From Spirogloea muscicola (lineage: Eukaryota; Streptophyta; Zygnematophyceae; Spirogloeales; Spirogloeaceae), in NCBI GenBank assembly GCA_009602725.1, contig WELB01000053.1:235896-291420 (forward strand): 55,525 nt of DNA, read 5' to 3'. Shown piece by piece: positions 1 through 37,800 of this stretch (position 1 is its first letter; each line of letters begins with the position of its first letter). The notes beneath the pieces were generated by a model. It had not been told where the DNA came from and made no database searches. It worked only from the letters and a program-made list of their open reading frames with translations. Made by a program: the position numbers and the translations under genes.

Positions 1-3000
1 CCCGCCCTCGGCGGCTACCGCCGCCTGCAGCTCTCCCCCGGGGCGGCCCCGGCGCACAACCGCCGCCGCCGCCTCCGCCTGGCCCCGCGCGCCGCCAGGA
101 CGCCGCAGCAGGAGGTCGCGGAGGAAGGTAACGACGCCCCCCGTCAAGCAGCAGCTGCTCGCAGCCCGCTCGTTGGCACAGTCTGCGGTGTCCGGCAGTC
201 TGGAGTGTGTGTGAGCTCAAGCCCTTCGTGAGGTACACAGACGGGCATACACTCAGTGGTGTTACTAGGATACGAGGCTGAAGGTCATGAATGCCAGCCT
301 GATAGACGACGGAGGGATAGCGAGAGCCCTTGGTCCCATCATCTGAGCCCTCCATTGCCAGAGACTCAGCTTCCGAGGGGCCAGCACAGGCATCAGCATT
401 GACAGGCGCGGGTGTCGTCCTGCAAGCTCGAGGCCTGACGTGCATGCTGCATGCGCCTGCGCGCCTTTGCAAGAGCAGCCTCGCGGCCGTTTGGGTTCCT
501 CAACATTGGGAAGAAGGCCGCCGACACCGAGCGCGCGGCCACTGGAGGGAGGACGATTGGCGGCAAGCTCCCGAAGGTGCCGGAGCGGGAGCGTGGCACG
601 CAGAAGGTGGCGGCGGGGCGCCCTGCAAAAGCAAAGGGTGCCGCGGGGACGCAGAAGGGCGGCATTGGCGCCGCTCTGGGCGCCGCGGCTGCCAAGCGGC
701 AGGCCGGCGGCACCACCAAGCTCGTGAGGCCCGAGGGCGGCACCGCAGTGGCACGCTCGGGCAGGCCTGCCAGGGACCTCCCCCGTGACAACAAGGTTGT
801 CTTCGTTGCCGGCGCCACTGGCAAAGTGGGCTCCCGTACTGTAAGGTGAGCTCGTCCCATCCCCCCGACGACAACCACTTGCAGTCCTGGTCTTGCATTC
901 GTCACCACACAAGTCAGGTGGTCAACCATCATATCTGTCAATCATTGACGTGCCTGCTTCTATCAGGCCATCCTTTTCTGTGCTTTTGCAATACATCCAT
1001 AGCACCAATTGATCGCGCTGGAGCAAGGTGAATGCTCCAGAAGCTAGTCCCGTTGGCCTTTGCGGGCCACCGCACTCTTGTCCAACTGATACCCTGTTCT
1101 GATGCTACAGGGAGCTGGTGAAGGCTGGCTTCCGCGTCAGGGCCGGCGCTCGCAACGTAGAGAAGGCCGAGGAGCTCCTGGCAGATGTGAGCTTTTGTAA
1201 TGCTGGACCAAGCGCGCTCAAAAATGTCCAGTGATGCGGCAACTCCAGCCAATAATTGCTCCACTCTGGAAGCAAGTTGGACACTTAACACTCTCGTGTT
1301 GGAAGCTCGTAACTCATGAACTGGCAGGATTTCGTCTGGAGCAATCAGAAGACAGCCTAAGTTGCTGGCTTTGTCTGGGTCGTCGCAGGTCTTGGATGTT
1401 GCTGCCAAGCCCGGAGGCTTCTGGGCTAGCCTTGGGGTCAGCCTGCCGCCTGCAGTCCCCAGCCTCGCAGTCTAAGTTTTTGCTCTTGAACAAGAGACGG
1501 CTGGAATGAGTCGCATCGGCCAGCCAGGACAGATGTGTTAGATGGGAATGTCAGCTCGTGTCCACCACTAGTGTGATCAACAGCATGCAGCTTTAATGGA
1601 TTGACTGATTCGCCTGTGAGCTGCCCTACTGAGGCGCTTGCTGCCACCCTGGTCTCCTCGAAGGGGCTCGTCCGGAGGCAGAAGCTGGTGGAGATTGTGG
1701 AGGTGAATCTCCAGGACCTGGAGTCGGTGGAGGCCGCCATTGGAAACGCAGGTACAGTAGTGAGCGCCCTGGGCGCATCAGAGAGCTCACTGCTGGATGT
1801 TACAGGCCCTTACAAGGTTGATGGCAAGGCCAACAAGGACCTCACTGCTGCAGGTAAGGTCCAATGCTGGCACCGCTGCTGTCCTTGTGGTCTGCACCTG
1901 TGACAAGCTTCGTTTCTGTAACGCACTTTAGCCTCTTTGTACCCTACATATCGTCTTTAAGATTGCAAGTCATGTTACTGCGCGCAGCTCCACCCATATT
2001 TTGTTTAGTTTGACGGGCTGTGCTTTCAATCCTTCAATGTCTAATTGTCAATGTCCTTGCTGCACGGCACACATTGCAGCTGTGGATATGAAAGTCAATC
2101 ACTTTGTGCTTGTCACGTCCCTGGGGACTGGCAAGCCTGGCTTCCCGGCAGGCCTTCTGAAGTATGTACCAAGTCCCTAAGTACAACTGGTAGCCTTGAC
2201 ACACAAAGATGTCAGGTGAAGTTCTTGAGTTCAGGAACTTCAAGAGAAAGAGACTGGCATACGTAGCAGTAGCTGCTGGATAGTTGCTGCATTTGCAGCT
2301 TGTGGGGAAGAGTTTGTGGGCTTGCTTACCAGCTATTCTATGACCGCTGCTCAGACTTGTATGTATGCTATCCCTGTGCTACAGCCTCTTTTGGGGCGTG
2401 CTCGTGTGGAAGGCCCAGGCAGAGAAGGCGCTCCGTGAAAGCGGCGTGCCTTACACCGTAAGCAATTGTTCAGAGACTCAGACGTGCTAGCTGAATGGGC
2501 CAATAGTAGGTTATGGACATAGTGCAAGGTTGTTCTAACTTGATACCTGCGTTGCAGATTGTGCGGCCTGGGGGAATGGAGAGGCCCAAGGATGACTACA
2601 AGGACACGCACAATCTCCGCCTGGCCCCACCAGACACCGAATTTGGGGGCCAAGTTTCCAACCTGCAGGTGAGCACTCTTTGCAATCTTGCCATATGGTG
2701 CTTTGAGTAACTGAAACTGCTGTGCAGATGGTGCCAATTGTAGACCAACATTATATACTTGATTATCCTTGATTAGGTTAAATCTGAATATTGTTTCAGT
2801 TACAAGAAGCTGCTGATTGACATGGCACGTTGACTAGCAACTGGCTTCCAACAGAGTACGTATACATTGTGCTGATACTTACAGTGGACTTGCTGTTTGC
2901 CATTGTCTCCTCAGGTTGCGGAGCTGATTGCTGGCATCATCAGCAACCCGGACTTGTCTCAATTCAAGACCCTCGAAGCTGTCGCTGAAGAGGATGCTCC

Positions 3001-6000
3001 CCTGCGGCCGATCGAGGAGCTCCTTGCTGAGGCCCCATCTGAAGGCCAACCTCAGGAGGACGATATTGCAGCGGCAGGGCAGCTGCAGCGGGATGACAAC
3101 GGTAGGCCGGCAACAGCCAGCAGGAAGATAGCAGGCAGCAAACGGCAGCAGGAGGTAAGTGACAACATGACGTGGTTCCTTTTTGTTGTATTATCATGAT
3201 GTTGATGTTTCTCCGCTACCAGTATCAATACCTGTACTCGAGACGCTTTGGCTTCCTGTGCTCCGAATAAGATTACATGCCTGCTCTTTCTCCAATTGTA
3301 CCAGTTACAGCTGGCTTCTGTTACACTGCTTCATAGCAGTCTGTGTTACGATTATCGTACATGAGGGTTTACCTGTCTGGGCAGGACAAGGAGATGGAGG
3401 GTAAGCGGCAGGAAGAATTGAGGGCAAAGGCTCAGCAGGAACGGGAGGCAGCTGAAAGGCAGGCTGCTGCTGAGCGAGAGGCAGAGCAGAAGAAGCTGGA
3501 GGCAGAGAAGGTCCGTGCTCTGCAGGTGAGGCAGGGGCACACTTAAAAGAGAGCGGTCAAGTAATGGGAGCAATTGTCAGTGATATTGATAGTAAAGTCC
3601 TCAGCAGCAGCAGTGTAAGGGGTCCTCCACAGAGCATTAAAACATCTGTTAAAGTGCTTACCATTGCCATCAATGTTCAAGTTTTGCAGTTGTGCTGCAG
3701 GTGCTGCAGCCAGCAGCTAGCCTCGTTGTTAAGTTGTGTCCTTCTGCAGGCAAAGCTCAGCAAGCAGCTGCAAGAGGCCAAGGAGGACGAGGCGGAGGCT
3801 AAGCGGCTGGCTGACGAGCAGACGGCAGAGAAGGCCGCCCTTGAGAGGCGCGCAAGTGAGATCAAGGCCAAGGCTGAAGCTGCCTCCCGGGCAGCCAAGG
3901 AGGCCAAGGCGCTTGAGGTGGCGGCCTTGGCATCTGCCAAGGAGGGCAAGATGTGAGGAGATCAACATCCAATTTGCTTGCACATGAATCCACTCAGGAG
4001 ATGACGGGAAGTCAGATTTTGAGCTTCTTGCACCTCTTAGCGGTCAAAAGAGCTGCAACCATTACATGCATGCAGTCAGACAACTGATGTGCATGTTTTA
4101 TGCATCTCGCAGCCTGAGCGCGCGAGAGAAGCAGGAGATTCTTGCCAAGGTTCGCTCGGAAGCGTCCTCATCAGTTGATCTGGGCTCCCCACCACAGCAG
4201 ATCGGCTCTGCGCAGAAGGCCTCCAGCGGGCAGCTGGGCGGCGGGTGGCCATGGCAGAGGGTCACGGAGGTTTCCAAGGTTGCCGAGCAGGCAGTGGAGA
4301 AGCCGGCTGAGGAGGCCAAGAGGGCCGGGCAGTCTGTGGCTGGTGCAGTGGCCAGCGCCGCTGAGGCTGCCAAGAAGAAGATTGCCGACCAGCAGGAAGC
4401 TGCCACGGCCAAGGCGCAGCAGGTTCGCCATAAGCCCCTCATTCCAAGTACAGCTGCCGATATGACATCCATTGGTTTTATTCACAGGGAGCAGAAAAGC
4501 CACGTGCATGAAGGTCTCAAGTTTCACAATGTGATGAACTCTGGTGTTGTCTAGTCTGAAGTAGATAGTCTGACCTCTCTTTGTGCAGCTTAAGGATGAA
4601 GCTGCAGCAAAGGCAAAGGCCGTGCAGGACGAAGAGGAGAGGAAGGGGAAGGCGGCAGAGGCGGAGGCCAAGGCCAAGGAGCTGGAGGACAGGAAGGCTA
4701 GCGAGGAGGCCGAGGCCAAGGCTGAGGAAGAGCGCAAGAGGGGAGAGGCAGCTGCCCAGGTTAGTCAGCGCTGAACAGCAAGCTTGCAGCAATGCTTTGA
4801 GCAAGACCTGGCGCTCATTGTGAAGGTGTGCGGCGAAGAGTGCATGCAAGACCACCCAAAGCAATCCCCTGTGCTTCCAGAGCACCATACTGCATACATG
4901 TATGTCTGCACTTCTATCACATATGTCAATTGACCTTAACAAGTGTACAGCAAATTGAGAGTCCCATGTATCCCACTGCCTGCAGAGGTCAGCAGGAGTC
5001 GTGTCCTACATTTTTCGCTGACATACTACCTTGCCGGATGCAACGCATGCAGCAGGCCAAGGAGCAAGCTGGGTCAGCAGCAGGGCAGGTTGTGGATGGC
5101 TTGCAGGAGGCGCCAAAGAAGGCGCAGAGTGCTGTTAGCGGCTTCCGCTGGCCATGGCAAGTGGAGGACACCCCAAGGTACAAGGAGACAAGGCCCTTAC
5201 GTGCTACCTTGTCTTTTCTGTTCATGTTATATAGATAATGGGATTTGCTTGCAGCCATTGAGCTTCTCAGGCATGTCATTCTGAATGCTTGCACTCAGAT
5301 GTTCATGTCTGAAGTGCAAGGGAGGGCATGATTACAGACGTCTCATCTGATTGGCGATTGGTTGTTTGGGTCCGGTTGAGTTTCTAGGATGAGGATTCAT
5401 CGTTAAGTGAAGGTTCAGCTTTCTTACACTGGTTTTATGGCTTCTTAGGTAGACGGCCTCTCGCTCAGAAGGTTAGGATGTGCATGTTTGTATATGTAAC
5501 ATCGTGGCCCTTCTCCAATGTGCAGTGCTGATTTCACAGAGAAGGCAGAGGATGCTGTAGAATCTGCGAAGGAGCTCGCAACGCCTGCTCTGTCATCAGT
5601 GCAGTCAACAGCGGAGGAGGTAGCAGAGCCTGTCACTGACGTCCTTGGTGCAGCTTCCCAGCAAGTTCAGGAGACAGCGGAGGAGGTCCAGGACACAGGC
5701 TTCCGCTGGCCGTGGCAACAGACACTGCCGAAGAAGGCTGAGGAGGCAGTGGCCGATGCGTGAGATGGCTTTCTCTTCCGTTTGTAGCACCTCAACTTCT
5801 GTACATCTGGGTCTTCTTGCGCGAGCTATCAGCTGCCTGATTGAGTCTGCCCAAGTATAATGCTGGCCTTCTTGTCATCCTGGTGCAGGTCTTCTGAGGC
5901 TGCTACTCAAGCTAGCACTCTGACTGAGAGGGCAGAGGAGCTCGTCGAGGACAATGCTGCACCGCTGGCGGAACAGGCAACAGACACGGTGAAGACGGCC

Positions 6001-9000
6001 GCTGGGCAGGTCCAGGAGTCAGTCAGCGGCGCCGCTGAAAATGTCCAGGACTCCGGGTTCCGCTGGCCCTGGCAATTTGTGGAAGATGCAAAGCAAGCGG
6101 CAGATGTGGCCTCCAAGGACATGTTCGTAGCACCTCACCGTACCTCTGCATTGCCAGAAGTAGATGCGCTCTGCAAGAAGGTAATTGTGTTACTTAGTAA
6201 TATACTAGGTGCTTGCTAACTACTACTACCAACCTTGACTGTAGCTGTACTGGGACTTCATCTATGTGGCTGCAAGTGACCTTCTCTTTTTGCTTACCTG
6301 CACAGTGCGCCTGAGGCTGCGGCCAAGGTGGAGGAAGGGGCTGGACAAATAGAGGAAGCTGTGGAGGAGGCTCAGCCTGCAGCAGAGGCTGCAGTTGGCA
6401 AGGCCAAGTCTGTTGTCGAGGAGGTGCAGGACAAGGCTGGCGAGGTGGCTGAGAGTGTGCAGGAGCAAGGCTTCCGCTGGCCCTGGCAGATTGCGGACGA
6501 CGCAAAGCAGGCGGCAGATGGTGCCATCAAGGACACGTACGTAGCACGTTGTCATACCTATGCACTGCTCATGACTGAATGTGCTCCACAAGATCATTGA
6601 TTGCGCAAGTGCTTGAGAAGAGCAGCCTTGACTATAGGCTTCTTAGTAAATTTTTTCAGGGAAGCTGATGCAAGTGAAATGTGCTTGATGTGCTTCACCT
6701 GCAGGTTGCCTGAGGCTGCGCCTAAGGTGGAGGATGGGATTGGACAGGCAGAGGAGGCTGTGGAGGAGGCGCAGCCTGCTGCAGAGGCTGCAGTTGACAA
6801 GGCCGAGTCTGTGGTTGAGGAGGTAAAGGACAAGGCTGGTGAGGTGGCTGAGAGTGTGCAGGAGCAGGGCTTCCGCTGGCCGTGGCAGATTGCGCAGGAC
6901 GTTGAAAGGGAAGCACAGGCGGCAGCTGCCAAAATGTATGTACATCCAATTCGGTGACTGCAGATTAGTCAGCTCAAGTCGTTGTGTGTCACATGTGCCA
7001 CGCTTTGCAAGAACGTCATAGCACCTCTGCACAATTTGTTTTGGTGAAGCAGAAGACCAGAAACGGATTATGCGCTAATCTCCTGTCATGTGGACCTTGC
7101 CTTAGGTGCAGTGTCCGTAGAAGAGTCTGGCTGTTGCATCCACTTCTTGTCATGCAATGCTTCAGGATGCTCCTCTCACTTCCCACCTTGTCAATGCAGT
7201 GCTCCTGAGGAGGCTCCTTCAGTGGAGGATGCAACCCAGAAGGACGAACCTCTAGAAAGCAAGCAAGCAAGCGAGGAAGCTGGCGACATGGCTGAGCAGG
7301 TGAAGGACAGCGTAGGCAAGGTCGCTGGCGAGGTGCAGGAGCAGGGGTTCCGCTGGCCTTGGCAGATTGCTCAGGATGCCCAGGAGCAGGCACAGGCAGC
7401 AGCACGCAGCATGTAAGTCTCAGATGAAGGCCTCGATGATAGTAATCACCAGCACTAGGCTGCTTAAAAAACAGTGCACCCCGTTTAAAGGTTGCGATAA
7501 GCTAGCATGGCGAGCAGTACGCAATAACGGAAGAAAAGTGGCTACTGTCCTTATTTCAATACTCTCACAAAATGGCATATGGCTTGCAATTCACTTGCTT
7601 TCAATCTGGCTGCAGTTCTCCCGTGACTGCTGGTCAAGCCCAGGCTACAGTGGAGCAGGCGCAAGATTTTATCAAGGACGAAGTGCTTCCGCAAGCCGAG
7701 AATGTGCCAGAAGAGGCACAGGAGGCCATGGAATCGGTCAAGCAAAAGGTCGAGGATGCCACCGAGGCACTGCCGCAGCAAGGCTTCGAGTGGCCATGGC
7801 AGAAGGCCGAGGACGCTATCAAGAGTATCAGCAACAAGTGAGTTGAGTCCGCAAGCTCGTGGGCTTGCCCACAAAAAGGAGATAGTCGTTATAATGGATT
7901 CACTTGCATTGAAGGTAACAGGTCACCTGGGTTTGTAGATTAGGCGTCAAGATTGCTCGTGGGATGGGAAGTCAGCGTTGCTTTGCTATTATTTTGTAGG
8001 GCATCTGAGGTAACCTCTCAGGCGGTGGAAACCATTGAGGGGGCGACCTCTCAGGCCACTGAAGCTGCCGAGGAGGGCGGGTTGTCGTCCAAAGATCTGC
8101 TGGAAGAGGCACCAGCCCAGGCAAAGGACGTAGTGGACGATACTGCAGAGAAGGCATCAGATGCTGTGCAGGGTACTTCAGAAAAGCTTGAGGCTGCATC
8201 TGCAGAGGCACGGGGCGTTGTTGAAGACGTCACGACTAATGTTCAGGAGGCTGCTGAGGCTGCTCCGCAGAAGCTGCCAGCACCTTTTGGCGGCTTCCGC
8301 TGGCCGTGGCAACGCGACACTGCTGCAGAAGCTGCAAGGTCAAAAAACGTTACACGTAATTTGAGAAATCATCGGAGCCAGTAGATACTGGACAATGAGC
8401 AGCATTTATTCTCAATGCACGCATGATGACAGCAACACATGGTGTCTCTCTCCTTCCCAAGTGCACACTGGATTCACGACAATCTTGTGTTCACCTGCAG
8501 TGCTGTGGATGAGGCTACTGAGGCTGCACAAGAGGTGCCGGCAAAAATTGATGATGCCATTGATTCGACAGCGGAGAAAAATGAGGGGTTTGCTAGCCAA
8601 GTAGAATCGGTGGTAAAGGACAACATCAACATTGAGGAGGCCGGGAAGAGCATTGGCGATAAGTGAGTGAGCCTGCAGTCAACTGAATTTACATGCAGTG
8701 TCATGGAGGAAGAACGAGTATAGATTCGTGGTCAGTAGCTAAGTTGTAGTATAAGGAATAAGGTCAAGCTTTTCTATCCTCACGTGCCTAATCGCCAGAT
8801 CACGACCTTTCATACTCCTCATGCACACTTCTTTTCCGTAGGGTGTCGGAGGTAACATCTCAAGCCACGGAGGCAGCTGAAGAGCCAGAAGAAGCTGCTC
8901 AAACATTGTCCGGCACACCAACAGGCCAAACTGCAGACTACCCAGTCGATAACTCGGTGAAGGAAGCATCCAAAGAGGCCTCGCAGGATGCTGGGGATGC

Positions 9001-10680
9001 TGCCGATAACGTGCAGGGCAAGGTTCAGGAGGCAGCCCCGCTGAAGCCGCTGGATGCTTTGGGTGGTTTCCGCTGGCCCTGGCAGCTGAATGGTCCTGCA
9101 ACACCTGCAAGGTCAGCAAGTAGCTATTATCATCAATCAGTCGTAATGATGTGAATATAGCAGTGTTGTACTCTACATTGCCAGTGAATCAGCGTGTTGC
9201 AGCTTTCAGAGCTGTTATGGCCACTTGCTTTTTCTGTCTCCTTCAAGTGCCAGCATATTGACAATGAAGCCTCCTGGCTCATATGCAGTGGAGTGAGCGA
9301 GGCTGCTGATACCACGCAAGAGGTTGCGGCAAACATTGAGTCTGCTGTCCAAGATGCACCGGAGAAGGTTGAGTCTGCTTTCAAAGAGACGGTCGAGAAG
9401 GTCAAAGGAGCTGCTGGTGAGGTCAAGTCGGCTGTCGAGGACAAGGTGGAAGAAGCCCCTCTGCCACAGAGTGCCACACCGCAGTCTCCATTTACCAGGT
9501 AACAGATCAAGGACAAATACCAGATGCAAGTTACTGCAGTGCTGAAGAGTGCAAGCATTGTCTGCTCTGTAGTGGCTTATATATATTTCTGCCTTTGCAT
9601 TGTGGATTGGCTAGTTTGTGCCCTAGAGGACCTCAGGCAGCTGTGACTAGGAATGGCACTCGTTGCTCCATATATTAGTGGTTACTCCTTGGGAGGTTTC
9701 TAAATGTATTCATTGGTGTATTTTAAGTACATATCTTTATCAGACCCTTTAGATAAGCTTCTTATCAACCTCCTCTGGTGGGCATGTGGACAGATACGAA
9801 GACCTCAAGCCGCCCGCGTTCCCTGGCCCCCTGCAAATGGCAGAGGGCACATCCACCAGCGCGCCCTCCACACAGGACATTGTGGCCCCCCTTAAGGGGG
9901 CCGCAGCGCAGGTTGTGCAGCAGTTACGCTGGCCCTGGCAGAAGGATTCCCAGCCTGAGGATATCAATGCCCCTGCAGAGCCTCCTACCCCAAAAGAGGT
10001 ATTGAGCCTTATATGTTATTAGAGTAGTCATCTCCATTGTTCGTTAAATAGGAGCATGTACATCACAAAGCAACCTCTGCATGACGGAATTTGAGTGACA
10101 CAATCCCCATGACTTGTCATTGGACTTTTGAAGGAGGTATCGGACGCGGTAAAGGAGGAGGTGGCTCCACCCCCACCCACTGCCGAGGTCCCCAAGTTGG
10201 AGCCAGCCGTTGAAGCCGACAAGGCGGTGCAGGCTATAGAAGAAGCCAAGGCGGAGCCCGCTCCACTGGCAGCGAAGGTTGCAGAAGCCGTGCCAGCTCC
10301 TCTCAAGCAGGTCGGAGCAGGCTTGCGGCCATGGGTAGCGACATCGCTGGGTGCAGTCACAAGCAAGGTGCGACGCTTGGAATCCTGTAGTGCAAGGCAT
10401 GTCTAGCAATCAAAGAATGTTATGGAGTTGTCCACCGCAGCAGCATAACAGTCTCATTAATACACGTCTATTGTTTGCATAGGCTGTGAAGGCTGGCTTC
10501 CGCTGGCCCTGGGAGGCAGGGTCCTCAAGCACAAACAGCAGCGTGGCCTCGTCGTCAAAGTCGTCAACAGATCTGCCATATGCCAACAGGCCACTCAGCC
10601 CTTACACCATGTACCCTGACCTGCGACCGCCCACATCCCCGACTCCCTACAAGCCCACCACGACGCCAGATACTGAGTAG
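1..10680 (+). CDS. Tic62-like NAD(P)-binding protein with WPWQ-repeat tail and FNR-recruitment motifs (5' partial)
   Basis: Exons: 1-127 (cut by window edge), 479-845, 1111-1186, 1389-1436 (weak), 1634-1853 (start weak), 2080-2161, 2385-2457, 2558-2668, 2915-3154, 3385-3525, 3750-3952, 4113-4422, 4589-4759, 5053-5177, 5526-5759, 5889-6122, 6306-6536, 6705-6935, 7200-7412, 7616-7837, 8000-8338, 8501-8662, 8842-9111, 9289-9498, 9794-9998, 10134-10367, 10483-10680. They join in phase to at least 1,758 residues; plant Tic62 is far shorter. Exon 1 is Arg-rich and transit-peptide-like. The Rossmann domain (about 800-3100) has VFVAGATGKVGSRTV (nucleotide-binding loop), LVTSLGTGKPGF, NLFWGVLVWK and IVRPGGMERP, all typical of Tic62. 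Then come charged helical segments, 12 WPWQ motifs and two FNR-type motifs. Tic62 links stroma, inner envelope and thylakoid by binding FNR; a similar role here is inferred. An alternative start is ATG 451, with an in-frame stop at 436. Confidence 0.85.
4237..10515 (+). repeat. Twelve-copy GFRWPWQ protein motif encoded across successive exons
   Basis: Copies lie at 4237-4257 (GGGWPWQ), 5140-5160, 5698-5718, 6055-6075, 6469-6489, 6868-6888, 7345-7365 (all GFRWPWQ), 7782-7802 (GFEWPWQ), 8292-8312, 9065-9085 (both GGFRWPWQ), 9924-9941 (LRWPWQ) and 10495-10515 (GFRWPWE). Each lies in its own exon of the Tic62-like gene, usually near the 3' end. Exons 8501-8662, 9289-9498 and 10134-10367 lack it. 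Between copies the protein is rich in Ala, Glu, Lys, Val and Gln, in helical repeats such as AEEAVEEAQPAAEAAV and KDKAGEVAESVQEQ. These recall amphipathic LEA-type or apolipoprotein-type helices. I know no named family with this motif. Confidence 0.93.
9485..9830 (+). other. FNR-recruitment motif 1, split by an intron
   Basis: Joining exon 9289-9498 to exon 9794-9998 gives SPFTRYEDLKPPAFPGP. This matches the Tic62/TROL FNR-binding consensus, roughly Ser-Pro-Tyr-x-x-Tyr-x-Asp-Leu-Lys-Pro-Pro-x-x-Pro-x-Pro. The intron falls inside the Arg codon in the middle of the motif, so neither exon alone encodes it. In plants this Ser/Pro-rich stretch forms a self-assembling helix between two FNR dimers. 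FNR binding here is inferred from the motif. Confidence 0.8.
10591..10647 (+). other. FNR-recruitment motif 2 at the C terminus
   Basis: The last exon encodes PLSPYTMYPDLRPPTSPTP about 15 residues before the stop. It is a nearly canonical Tic62/TROL motif with Lys replaced by Arg. It lies about 35 residues after the last WPWE copy. A C-terminal position is the same as in plant TROL, where the motif anchors FNR to the thylakoid. Confidence 0.85.
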
Positions 10681-15800: not shown

Positions 15801-18800
15801 GTGATAGCAATGGTCAGCTCAACCTGCTGGTCATCAACCACGATAAGGAGAGGTAGGGTGGTTCTGTTAGAATTCCTCTTGCAAGTATTCAATGCTCCTA
15901 CTTTCCACATAGTAGCAACACCGTTAGTACAAGCAGTTCTGGACATGGATCTTGTCAGGCGGCTGTGATACTGCACTGTTCAGCTTTTAGCACTGAGTAT
16001 TGCTGCAGGGTGCTTGGCTTGAAGCTGGAGCTACTTGGTGAGACATCGGCTGGTTCAACACTGTCATACCTGGACAACGGTGTGGTGTACATAGGCTCAA
16101 GCTATGGGGATTCTCAGGTAAACACTATACTTGCAAGCATGGGTTTCGAGAGGCAGCTAATGCGGGTCTGTAAGGCTTCTGCTAAGCATAGGAGCAGGCA
16201 ACATGCTATATTTGTCTAGCCGTCTTTGAGGTTCTTGTGGCCGTATCTCATTTTCGTAGCAGATTTTCCAAGTCCTCTGCTTTTGTAGAGCAGGCATTCC
16301 TCTCACCTTGGAACCTTGACGGCCTTGCTGCTGAGCCGATTCGCTTTATGCCGTGATTGTGCAGCTTGTAAAGCTCAACCTGCAGCCAGATACCAAAGGG
16401 TCCTACGTTGAGATCCTGGAGAATTTTGTCAACCTGGGCCCCATTGTAGACTTGTGTGTCGTTGACCTGGAACGCCAGGGTCAAGGTCAAGTCGTCACGT
16501 GCTCCGGGGCATTCAAGGATGGGTCTTTGCGCATCATTCGGAATGGCATCGGTATCAACGAGCAGGTATTGGGCCCTCGCAGATAAAATTTAGGCTGGCC
16601 CATGATGTAGCATTGAAGTCCTTACACTGGAACAAAGGGCTTCCCATTCCTCATCCTGAAACTGACTACGTATATTGTCCTAATACTTTGCAAGCCTATA
16701 TTGATGGAGGCTGGACTTATATTCAAGGGCTAGTAAAAGTCTTTGTTTTGTTGTGATCCTTATGGCGTGCGACATCACAGGCAGCTGTTGAGTTACCAGG
16801 AATCAAAGGCATGTGGTCCTTACGTGCGTCATCCATGGATGCTTATGACACGTACTTGGTAGTCACCTTCATAAGCGAGACTCGAATATTGGCAATCAAT
16901 GCTGATGACGAATTGGACGAGACTGAGGTGGAGGGTTTTGATCCAGAGGCACAGACGCTCTTCTGTGGCAATGCTGTTCACGATCAGCTCGTCCAGGTAA
17001 GGCCTCTGCTCTTGGCGCGATAAGGCAACCAATGTCTTATTTGAGGTCTGATATTGAAAGTCAAATCTAACATCTACCTTCTGGTTATCCTATTGAGTTT
17101 GGAATGTCACTCTGCTGCAGCCCTGGCACATGTCTTGCCCTTCTTTGAGCTGCAGATCCTTGTTGCTGGCCCCAAAGCTTCCATGATGTCTAGGGCCCAA
17201 CAATCTGCACACAGCTTCAGCAAACGAGCTAGAGCAGGTTGTGACACTGCTGCCTGTTTGTTGATCATACCTCTTGGAAGGTCACTGCTGGTTGCCTGCG
17301 ACTTGTGGATGCTGCCACACTCAAAGCTATAGCAGAATGGAAGGCCCCTTCCGGCATTACAATCAACGTAGCCACTGCCAATGCTTCACAGGTGCCCGCA
17401 TGACTCATGCAATAATGCCATCTTTTCATTTCCTTGACTGAAAGCGGAGCCTATCCTTGATGAGGACCTTAAAGTCAATTGCATGTCCCTCTCCGTGTCT
17501 GTCTTTCAACAAGGCCAATGGGCTTTGTGAGTGATGGAAGGCAGATATTTTACAAGTAATGGCAAAATATGTTGTCTAGGAATCTGAACAGCGATGTCAG
17601 GCAAAAATTGCAATGAGTGCTTGCTTGTAGCTTGCTGATGTCTAGCTTGCTGTCAGGTAAGAAGTTGTTTGCTGCAGATTCTCATCATGCCCTCCCTTTG
17701 ACAACACCTGTGATGGGGCAGGTCTTGTTGGCCACTGGTGGAGGGAACTTGGTCTATCTAGAAATAGCTCAGGGCAAGCTGGTGGAGGTCAAGCACGTGC
17801 AGCTTGAGTTTGAGGTTTCATGCCTCGACTTGAATCCTCTGGAGGAAGGAGCTGAGAGCAGCCAGTTGGCCGCGGTGGGGATGTGGACGGACGTGAGTGT
17901 CCGAGTGTTCTCTTTGCCTAGCCTGGAACTTGTGGCGAAGGAGAGCTTGGGGGGTGAAATCATCCCCAGATCCGTCCTCTTTTGCTCCTTTGAGGGGGTA
18001 CGCAGTTTCATCAGAGCCAATTCTCACAAGATTGCTTTGTTCAGGATTAAGCATTTCCAGGTCTTATTACTGGAAATCATCCCCGTTCGAAGATCTCTTG
18101 CAAAATCATCATTTCTTGTAGAGACCTTTAGCATACTTATATACTTGTGCACACGGCTGTTGTGATGCCAGGTACCTTATTTGCTCTGTGCACTTGGAGA
18201 CGGACATCTCTTCAATTTTGTGGTGGAAAGATCAATTGACGATAAAGCAAGGCTCTCCGATCGAAAGAAGATTTCGCTTGGCACACAGCCAATTACACTG
18301 AGGACTTTCCGGTCCAAGAATGCTACGCATGTGTTTGCGGCTAGCGATCGCCCAACTGTCATCTACAGCAGCAATCGTAAGCTGCTGTACTCCAATGTGA
18401 ACCTTAAGGAGGTTAAACACATGTGCCCATTCAACTCAGCTTCATTCCCAGACAGGTGCGCTTCACTCCATCTTTCTCACATTATCTGCTATTTAATATT
18501 GACGATCTTGCTTTGGACAAGCCTGTTTCACTTGACCTCAAGCATGTCACAAATACTGAGACACTGTTGTCTGCCTTGCTGAGGCCAGTCTTGCAATAGG
18601 CAAGGAGGGCGAATTGACTATAGGTACCATAGATGACATACAAAAGTTACACATTAGGACTGTACCACTAGGCGAGCATGCCCGCAGGATAGCTCATCAG
18701 GTTTGGCATCTCGCTATTGCCTCTGGTTGGGCTCTTCATTGCTGGACTTGGGTCATGCTCGCAACAACACTAAGCAGCAAATCACAGGCAGCTGCCTTCC

Positions 18801-34805: not shown

Positions 34806-37800
34806 ATGCGCGGCGAGGGGAAGGCCGCCGCCGCGGCGAAGGGTGAGGAGGAGGAGGAGGACGACGACGACGAGAGCGGCGGCCTGTACCATGGCAGCGA
34901 CGGGGCCTGCAGCGACGGCGGCACGCCGGACGCCTCGGTGAACGATGCCGGGGACTACGAGGAGGTCAGCACCATCGAGACGCCGGATGAGCCCGACTAC
35001 AAGGTGAGCTCTTCCCGGTGGCACCAATTATTGCTGCACAACTGCTGCGCTAGCATTGAGGCTGGGACCTGGAGGTCATTTGTAGCCTAGAAAACATGCA
35101 TGCTGCTGTAGAAGCTCGGCGAGCATGCTCTTGCATGTTCTTTGCTCGGTGTCTGTGTGTTTGCCTCATGATTGCAGGGTACCAATGCAAGCAGGGTACA
35201 AGTAGATTGGCTCCTTCAATGATGCCAGGTCCTGTCCTTTTTGAGTGGGTCGGTGCTTCGCAGGACCCTAAATAGGATCTAATATGTCGCAGGTTATCAA
35301 CAAGGAGTCCCTTCTGGCCGCCCAGGTGAGGCGGTTCACAAGAATAAGAACCATGAGCAGCCTGAAGGAAAGTGAGTGCAGTTGTGCCAGGCCACGTAGA
35401 AAGGGAGGGCGAGGAGCAAAGCCTGGTCATGTAGTGTTTCCCTCTTGCTAAAACAGTGCTCAATTATCTTCGCCCATGCTGCTTACTGCATATTCCCCAC
35501 AGATTTGAGCACTTCAAGGCATGGCATGGATAATCTCGGTATCGTCTGGCAGATCAAAGACCTGCACAAAGTGGTAGACGTGCTCGGGGTTCAACTCCAA
35601 CACGCAAGGGCGCTGCTCATCTACCATCGATGGGACATTGAGTCACTCTTTGGCAGGCTTGCGGACAAGGGCGAGGAGAGGCTCTTTGTTGAGGCAGGGT
35701 TGCCATTCAATGCTAGAAGCGCAGGGGTGATGCAGGAGATGCAGGGGCAAGTCAACTGCAGGGCTTGCTTGGAGACTGTGGCCAGTGCAAGTGCCACCAT
35801 GATGAGCTGCGGGCACAGCTTTTGCAACGACTGTAAGACTACTGTTGTCCTGACAGTCTGAACATGGAGTAATGGACGGCTTGATGTGCATGTCTGGGCA
35901 TGGCTAGCACACCAAGAATGCTCGATCGGAGGCACGTAAAGGCAGCTCCTCTCAAGCTTCTGAAAAATATGCTCCCTCTGTGTGCAGGTTGGACGCGCTA
36001 CTTCATCATTAAGATCCTGGAGGGTCAGAGTCGGCGCGTGACATGCATGGAGCACAAATGTATCGCTATATGTGATGAGCACAAAGTGCGGAAGCTTGTA
36101 GGAGCATTCGACGCAGATGCTGTGAATCGGTATGAGCAGTCTTTATTGGAGTCCTATATTGAAGACAACAGCAAAGTGAAGTGGTGCCCCAGTGTGCCTC
36201 ACTGTGGGAATGCCATCCGTGTGGATGGAGAACCTTTTGCTGAATTGGAATGCGTTTGCAGTCAGCAATTCTGCTTCAATTGCTTGGCGGAGCCACACTC
36301 TCCATGCTCATGCTCAATGTGGCGGCTTTGGGACCAGAAGTGCAAAGACGAGTCGGAAACTGTCAATTGGTTGACAGCGCACACAAAGCCATGTCCAAAA
36401 TGTCAGAAACCAGTTGAGAAGAACGGGGGATGCAACCTCGTCGCATGCATCTGTGGCCAGGCTTTCTGGTAAATCACTACCTCTCCACATGTTGATGTCA
36501 TTACGGTGTGTGACCTTCTAGGTATGTCGCCGTTTTATCCAGGCAGGGTCTATCATGTGTGATGAATGACTGATGACTGAGAGATAGCTTCTCAAAGTAG
36601 GAATGAGCTTCTGGTTGGCGTGTTTGTCAAGATGCTAGTTATTATGCATGTCTAAGGTACTGCAGATGCCGCTGATATTCAGCAATATGTCTACAGCAAT
36701 GTTTCTCTCTCTACTGTGGAGAACTGAAGCATTGAGATGATCTTCTTGCACTGTGTCAGTTGGTTGTGTGGAACCGCGACTGGTCGGGAGCACACATGGA
36801 CGACCATATCTGGGCACAGCTGTGGCCGTTACAAGGATGAGAAGGAGGCCGAAGCCCAGCGAGCGCAGCGTGACTTAAAGCGCTACATCCACTACCACTC
36901 AAGATGGAAAGGACATATGGACTCACTCAAGTTTGAAAAGAAGCAGCGGGAGATGGTGCAGGCCAAGATCTCCAAGTTGGAAGCGAGTGAGTCCCTGGTC
37001 AAGGATTACACATGGCTTACAAGCGGGCTGCAGAAGCTGTTCCGAGCACGTAGATCTTTGGCGTATTCCTATGCCTTTGCATACTACATGTTTGGCAACG
37101 AGCTCTTCAAGGATGACATCAGCGAGGAGCAGAATGTCATCAACCAGAACCTTTTTGAAGACCAGCAGCAGCAATTGGAGGGGACTGTGGAGAAGCTCAG
37201 CAAGCTTGTGGAGTCACCAATGGACCTCGATGCTGATGATGACGAAGTGCAGAAAATCCGTCTGGAAGTCATCAATCTTACGTCTTTGACGGATGCCCTT
37301 TGCCAAAGGATGTAAGCTGGCACCTTGCAATAACACCTATCATACTAGGACTAGCGAAGGAGGTTTCAAGCTGATCAGTAATGCTCATGCATTACAAGCT
37401 GTTACAGCTCCTCTTACTCAGATTGGAAAGCGAGCTGCTTACGTGCAGGTATGACGTCATCGAGAACGACCTATTGGGCTCCCTGCAACTGACAACCCAT
37501 CACATAGCTCAGTACAAAGCTCGAGGATATAAGCGCGCCTCGGAGATTACCTCGCAAGCAGGTGTAAGCAAGGCAACCCCAGAATGGTCCACAGCTGCAG
37601 GTGAGCAAGATTTGCTTGGTCCTAGGAGGTTTCCTCCTCGTTAGCTGCCACCCGTGCAAGAAGTAAGCACATTGCAAGTAGTCATTGGAACAAACATTGT
37701 GTTTCATCACGAGCCTTCTGCCGCAATTTTGTGTCAAGGTGAGGGATAATTCTGGCGCCTGGGATCTCAGGAGTGTCTTCTGTATGGTGCATATGCCATG

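Follow-up and report, generated by a model that had tools for sequence, protein, structure and literature searches.

A stretch of 55,525 nucleotides from the zygnematophyte alga Spirogloea muscicola (contig WELB01000053.1, positions 235,896 to 291,420 of the forward strand; hereafter the window) opens with a gene for a TIC62 protein whose tail is predicted to hold 12 copies of a short tryptophan motif, here called WPW. The gene spans positions 2..10680 on the + strand. Our model, assembled by hand, has 26 exons (2-127, 479-845, 1111-1186, 1634-1853, 2080-2161, 2385-2457, 2558-2668, 2915-3154, 3385-3525, 3750-3952, 4113-4422, 4589-4759, 5053-5177, 5526-5759, 5889-6122, 6306-6536, 6705-6935, 7200-7412, 7616-7837, 8000-8338, 8501-8662, 8842-9111, 9289-9498, 9794-9998, 10134-10367 and 10483-10680). 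They form a single open frame of 1742 amino acids (aa) plus a stop, ending at 10680, and all introns are GT-AG. The N-terminus is missing: exon 1, rich in R, A and P, is bordered on its 5′ side by a stretch of N at least 3896 bases long, so that the start codon is not seen. An ATG at 452 was rejected as the start, as it is not conserved in the two other copies of the gene in this genome (C91 and C160, described below).

Organization of the predicted protein

The N-terminal part contains an NAD(P)-binding domain (NDR, atypical SDR), which was identified with Pfam, occupies aa 146-376 and is spliced over exons 2 to 8 (787..2986, +). It is followed by a charged segment rich in Ala, Glu and Lys (2987..4236, +, spliced), after which the motifs begin. 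A pattern search for WPW[QE] placed exactly 12 blocks of this kind in the interval 4237-10515 (+), in agreement with the 12-copy array reported by the initial annotation, which had been made from the sequence without database searches. Eight of them read GFRWPWQ exactly: motifs 2 (aa 740, 5140..5160), 3 (aa 810, 5698..5718), 4 (aa 886, 6055..6075), 5 (aa 963, 6469..6489; the unit modeled below), 6 (aa 1040, 6868..6888), 7 (aa 1111, 7345..7365), 9 (aa 1305, 8292..8312) and 10 (aa 1449, 9065..9085). The four variants are GGGWPWQ (motif 1, aa 592, 4237..4257), GFEWPWQ (motif 8, aa 1189, 7782..7802), QLRWPWQ (motif 11, aa 1577, 9921..9941) and GFRWPWE (motif 12, aa 1685, 10495..10515).

Motifs follow one another at intervals of 70-148 aa. 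They account for 24 of the 25 tryptophans of the tail, whose composition would yield 0.04 copies of WPW by chance, versus the 12 observed. Exons 14 to 23 all have phase 2-2 boundaries, and eight of these ten carry one motif each, which points to tandem exon duplication; some exons match neighboring exons at about 77-87% DNA identity. Judged from the gene model, the 12 blocks fit one protein. The exons are thus compatible with a single transcript, as had been supposed, with one frame, GT-AG introns throughout and a structure shared by the homeologous copies apart from the edge of exon 4 in C91.

The gene encodes TIC62

Database comparisons bore out the earlier designation of the protein as Tic62-like. 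Pfam NAD_binding_10 matched aa 154-364 with an E value of 2.2e-30. A protein search gave 401 matches, the top one named TIC 62; many among the best 120 of the 401 bear the same name, and identity over the domain to these best 120 is 53-63%. The whole protein retrieved 15 proteins, the best of which, Glycine soja TIC 62, was the only one with that name. All three protein searches scored only about 8000 candidates each, and algal sequences may in many cases have gone unseen.

The tail also contains two putative motifs for binding ferredoxin-NADP reductase (FNR). The FNR-binding repeat consensus, as quoted from PMC1847441, is S-P-Y-x2-Y-x-D/E-L-K-P2-S/T/A-S/T-P-S/T-P. The first motif, PQSPFTR|YEDLKPPAFPGP (9479..9830, +), was recognized by eye against this consensus; it is divergent and split by the intron at 9499-9793, and this copy, SPFTRYEDLKPPAFPGP, deviates at three places. 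The second, DLPYANRPLSPYTMYPDLRPPTSPTPYKP (10570..10656, +), lies near the C-terminus, where PLSPYTMYPDLRPPTSPTPYKP aligns with a crystallized Tic62 peptide, chain C of PDB entry 3MHP (E value of 8.2e-6); by eye, SPYTMYPDLRPPTSPTP fits the consensus except for a change of K to R. For the signature of group I Tic62, E-R-P/A-T-D-x-Ar-K/G-E-T-H according to the same source (PMC1847441), the window reads ERPKDDYKDTH, by eye with two departures, T to K and E to D.

A phylogenetic tree of the NDR domain was built from 25 of 27 chosen proteins, those of Nelumbo and Tasmannia being dropped because of a mismatch to the domain start pattern. The three Spirogloea copies, Closterium, the unnamed EukProt protein P0016 and land plants were split from chlorophytes (100/100). 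The three copies fell outside land plants (100/98); their placement relative to the long-branched Closterium and P0016 was not settled by the tree. Taken together, NDR domain, FNR motifs and phylogeny identify the gene as TIC62.

TROL, a rhodanese-like protein, has the same kind of C-terminal FNR-docking domain (PMC6953530), but a Pfam scan of the whole window protein gave NAD(P)-binding families alone and no rhodanese domain, and identity with TROL was rejected. The one additional FNR-motif match in the genome (contig C83, E value of 1.16), considered as a candidate TROL, falls in a short open reading frame surrounded by stop codons and appears to be noise; rhodanese genes as such were not searched for.

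Homeologous copies and selection on the motif

Spirogloea muscicola carries a genome triplication (PMC7994812). In the assembly searched (153 Mb, 471 contigs), all 18 matches to an array query fall at three loci, the window (C53), C91 and C160. The copies are 93-94% identical in exons and 81-83% in introns. C160 has the same exon model with a frame open throughout. C91 shares the model too, but its exon 4 has four additional bases close to the 5′ edge, which a downstream in-frame acceptor AG would bypass at the cost of 10 residues; otherwise the frame is broken. On the 5′ side of the presumed transit-peptide exon, an N run (C53) or the contig end (C91 and C160) occurs at the equivalent place, so that all three copies lack the start codon.

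All 12 WPW cores are identical in the three copies. Of 84 alignment columns within motifs, 3 vary among the copies; for the tail outside the motifs, the figure is 180 of 1073 (P = 0.0003). Between homeologs, the ratio of nonsynonymous to synonymous substitution rates (dN/dS) amounts to 0.02-0.04 in the 7-residue motifs, 0.20 in the flanking 10 residues on each side and 0.30-0.36 in the linkers; the NDR domain gives values of 0.13-0.21, the FNR motifs 0.05-0.22. On the three-copy tree, nonsynonymous and synonymous changes number 3 and 15 in the motifs versus 196.5 and 171.5 in the linkers (P = 0.002, Fisher test on linker counts rounded beforehand). The contrast between a conserved motif and diverging linkers, first noticed among the repeats of one copy, therefore holds between homeologs, and the data support selection acting on the WPW motif itself.

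At the DNA level, 21 of 51 genome-wide matches to F-x-WPW-[Q/E] lie outside the three TIC62 loci, and none of them forms an array: at most two occur per contig, more than 20 kb apart, and a reversed-pattern control gave 172 matches. Several of these stray matches occur as two or three identical or nearly identical copies on different contigs, which fits the triplicated genome.

Distribution of the motif among TIC62 relatives

Module order was read after residue 330 in 29 chosen proteins, with W for a WPW-type motif, f for the FNR motif and x for a third motif, WIxxW[K/R]; the pattern used misses GGGWPWQ, so that the window protein scores 11 W in this comparison. The motif [F/L]-[R/K]-W-P-W-[Q/E] was found in 17 of 28 relatives, in 2-6 copies each. 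Its bearers are Closterium, liverworts, one moss, lycophytes, ferns, unnamed proteins and one Bryopsis-like alga. The array had been thought to belong to no known family; instead, the motif proved to be a shared module of TIC62 tails from zygnematophyte to ferns, and a separate repeat family was rejected since the motif is nested within those tails.

The TIC62 proteins of Closterium (P0123), liverworts (P0002, P0003, P0010, P0014 and P0124), lycophytes and ferns resemble that of the window in having an NDR domain, a charged tail, F-x-WPW-[Q/E] and FNR motifs, and the end of the Closterium tail is closely similar to the window C-terminus. Their 2-6 WPW motifs mostly alternate with FNR motifs, as in Closterium (fWfWfWf), Marchantia P0014 (WfWfWfW), Calypogeia P0002 (WfWfWf), Diphasiastrum (WfWfWfW) and Adiantum P0005 (WfWffW); Riccia reads WWff, and P0016 reads WffW. 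The window protein, in contrast, has 12 WPW versus two FNR motifs and long amphipathic linkers. Some seedless-plant proteins terminate in the motif (e.g., FKWPWQQ in Adiantum P0005).

In 38 instances from 13 of the 17 W-bearing relatives, collected with a pattern that fixed both tryptophans and limited the Phe position to F/L/G/I and the Pro position to P/F/S, the residues were F in 33 and L in 5, R in 21 and K in 10, P in 32, F in 5 and S in 1, and Q in 26 and E in 9. The replacements of Pro are WFW in five fern or lycophyte units and WSW in one moss unit. Thus, the motif does not drift freely like the linkers, either between homeologs or across relatives.

Angiosperm (pea-type) TIC62 shares the NDR domain and the polyproline FNR-docking motif with the window protein but has a shorter tail. 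Among the 106 proteins P0017-P0122, taken from the best 120 of the 401 protein matches, none has W and 105 have f, Physcomitrium P0079 being the exception. These 105 comprise 96 angiosperm proteins by name and nine without a name; the names among the best 120 of 401 include no gymnosperm. The tail of Glycine P0001 likewise has f and no W. Conversely, the moss Ceratodon (P0013, WWW) and P0129 (WxWxx) have W without f. This indicates that, at the level of tail sequences, W and f are separable modules. With WPW retained in one moss tail and one Bryopsis-like tail that are devoid of the FNR motif, FNR is probably not the sole ligand of WPW.

The two mosses, Ceratodon P0013 and Physcomitrium P0079, both lack the FNR motif. 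The former retains its three WPW-type motifs, and the listed form of the latter is almost tailless, with neither W nor f. Since Closterium and liverworts possess the FNR motif, its loss in mosses looks likelier than a gain in vascular plants.

Chlorophyte TIC62-like proteins (Chlamydomonas schloesseri, Parachlorella and Bryopsis) resemble the window protein in the NDR domain (53-56% identical) and in their long tail of charged residues; they have no FNR motif and no WPW, and carry WIxxW[K/R] instead. In the chlorophyte-type tails examined (P0125-P0128, P0015 and P0129), this tryptophan motif is present in 2-3 copies, without an FNR motif, and may be a second lineage-specific docking motif. Five of them score x only. 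P0129, which groups with Bryopsis in the NDR tree (95/91), carries both WIxxW and WPW. The W module appears to predate land plants. It is perhaps as old as green plants, given this one chlorophyte-type case, for which convergence is also possible.

Linkers and structure of one unit

Hydrophobic periodicity of the linkers peaks at 98-100 degrees (z of 12.5 versus 200 shuffles), as for an amphipathic alpha helix, in line with the helical linkers initially proposed. All 11 linkers are net negative, and the whole tail has a charge of -116. One unit was modeled with AlphaFold2 using exon 16 of the window and seven sibling exons as input (8 paralogous rows). The model has a helix at residues 3-54, a break at GFRW (55-58) and a helix at 59-75 starting at the Pro. 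Confidence, expressed as the predicted local distance difference test (pLDDT), is 70 at residues 51-60 and peaks at 81 at residues 61-70, at or just after the motif. The prediction suggests that each unit may bend at GFRW, between a long helix and another that begins at the Pro; structure prediction, as had been recommended, thus returned a helix-hinge-helix, at low overall confidence (mean pLDDT of 61, predicted template modeling score of 0.26). Solved structures searched with the motif unit gave no good-scoring match (best E value, 0.65).

Elsewhere, the window contains ordinary nuclear genes, a beta-propeller exon of RSE1/DDB1/CPSF1 type (17617-18165) and an Ariadne/IBR E3 ligase (35885-37315).

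Discussion

In angiosperms, Tic62 and TROL tether FNR at the thylakoid, more so in the dark, and affect cyclic flow (PMC7984839, PMC8825262). Both have been called higher-plant specific (PMC7984839, 2021). An earlier study (PMC1847441, 2007) describes the FNR-binding module as confined to vascular plants and group I Tic62 as not found in green algae, and orthologs of the tether are not known in Chlamydomonas (PMC5683061). The FNR motif occurs in Closterium, the Spirogloea alga and liverworts; the FNR tether therefore appears, from these tails, to be older than land plants. The WPW motif is a second, widely conserved and apparently undescribed module of the TIC62 tail. No description of it in TIC62 was found in the open-license PMC literature, although one may exist elsewhere, and the one paper found to use the phrase "WPW motif" deals with antimicrobial peptides. 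The history of TIC components including TIC62 has been reconstructed (PMC12531127), and the figures of that work may bear on the tail. As the module is absent from the angiosperm proteins seen, studies of Arabidopsis and pea were hardly in a position to reveal it.

We propose, with a probability of about 0.55, that WPW is an ancient element of TIC62 tails that docks or anchors the protein to a partner other than FNR, and that exon duplication amplified it here into a multivalent FNR tether. The tail would comprise two separable short modules, the polyproline FNR-docking motif in two copies and F-[R/K]-W-P-W-[Q/E] in 12. The latter would dock, in a sequence-specific manner, to a conserved partner in the chloroplast, at the thylakoid or close to it; this surface would be one other than FNR, because WPW persists without f in a moss and in P0129. 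The tail may behave as a series of flexibly joined rods, each hinge offering an aromatic contact. One TIC62 could then make up to 12 weak contacts and gain avidity, keeping FNR and the NADP(H)-binding domain at the surface of the partner; the rise in copy number is ascribed to tandem exon duplication. The 12:2 ratio of W to f suggests that this lineage multiplied its contacts to the surface and not its capacity for loading FNR. The earlier proposal of a tether holding FNR in clusters is borne out in part: two FNR-binding motifs, not named then, argue for the tether, but the clustering of FNR is unlikely, on the distribution of the modules, to be the direct job of WPW.

Several observations count against this proposal. 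Five of the six chlorophyte-type proteins have no WPW. In 6 of 38 motif instances another residue takes the place of the central Pro, which is looser than a strict pocket would suggest. Constraint on the motif does not differ significantly from that on the NDR domain (P = 0.15), seven residues being few, and the unit model is weak. Moreover, a role at the membrane interface explains the same residues. WPW blocks would then insert into thylakoid or envelope lipid between amphipathic, apolipoprotein- or LEA-like helices lying on the surface, forming a multivalent lipid tether that needs no protein partner. We regard this as a possible, though clearly less probable, alternative. It is consistent with the amphipathic helical linkers, with R or K before the first W in 31 of 38 instances, and with a weak match of Pfam Apolipoprotein (PF01442) to a 721-aa piece of the array (33 bits, E value of 6e-8, below the cutoff of 90); indolicidin, a membrane-active peptide, contains WPW twice (PMC6801614). 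However, a tail of net charge -116 with every linker negative would be unfavorable on anionic lipids, and the Pro and the terminal Q/E, retained in 32 and 35 of 38 instances, respectively, are positions at which a lipid anchor would accept substitutes. Angiosperm TIC62 is without the motif yet still a thylakoid tether (PMC8825262). The retained P, Q/E and F positions favor a protein partner, as far as residue conservation can tell, and the near-fixed motif sequence points somewhat toward a specific protein pocket.

An improbable alternative is that the 12 aromatic blocks bind one another, or the NDR domain of TIC62, as stickers between spacers, giving oligomers or condensates that concentrate FNR. 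Blocks 70-148 aa apart, separated by charged helical spacers, with 12 copies as an effective valence, would suit such a scaffold; relatives retain the motif at 2-6 copies, few for a role in condensates only. EPYC1, a pyrenoid linker with a Rubisco-binding motif, was considered as an analogy only.

Still less probable, and drawn solely from distribution, is the idea that WPW docks TIC62-FNR to an enzyme lost in angiosperms, such as flavodiiron proteins, and that the motif vanished along with its partner. Dark-operative protochlorophyllide reductase is another candidate partner lost from angiosperms. Flavodiiron proteins show such a distribution (PMC7865949), and two partial genome matches to the flavodiiron-type ODP domain exceeded the Pfam cutoff. 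This is a guess, against which the WPW-less chlorophyte-type proteins also speak. If it were true, FNR and an alternative electron sink consuming ferredoxin or NADPH would sit on one scaffold in algae and seedless plants, and gymnosperm TIC62 would be expected to retain WPW.

The Ala/Glu/Lys-rich composition and the exon cross-matches that signal duplication could also reflect a low-complexity, LEA-like stress-type tail grown as a neutral spacer with a motif of little function, but the low dN/dS of the motif relative to the linkers and its conservation across relatives make this very unlikely. Misassembly or wrongly joined exons, to which the N run or contig end at the N-terminus of all three copies might point, can practically be dismissed, as the same 12-motif model recurs on three contigs in one frame with GT-AG introns and annotated proteins of relatives contain the same modules.

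Under the docking proposal, the 12-copy array of Spirogloea would lend itself, by its high avidity, to use as a bait for the partner of WPW. The nature of that partner bears on how FNR is placed between linear and cyclic electron flow in seedless plants and algae.

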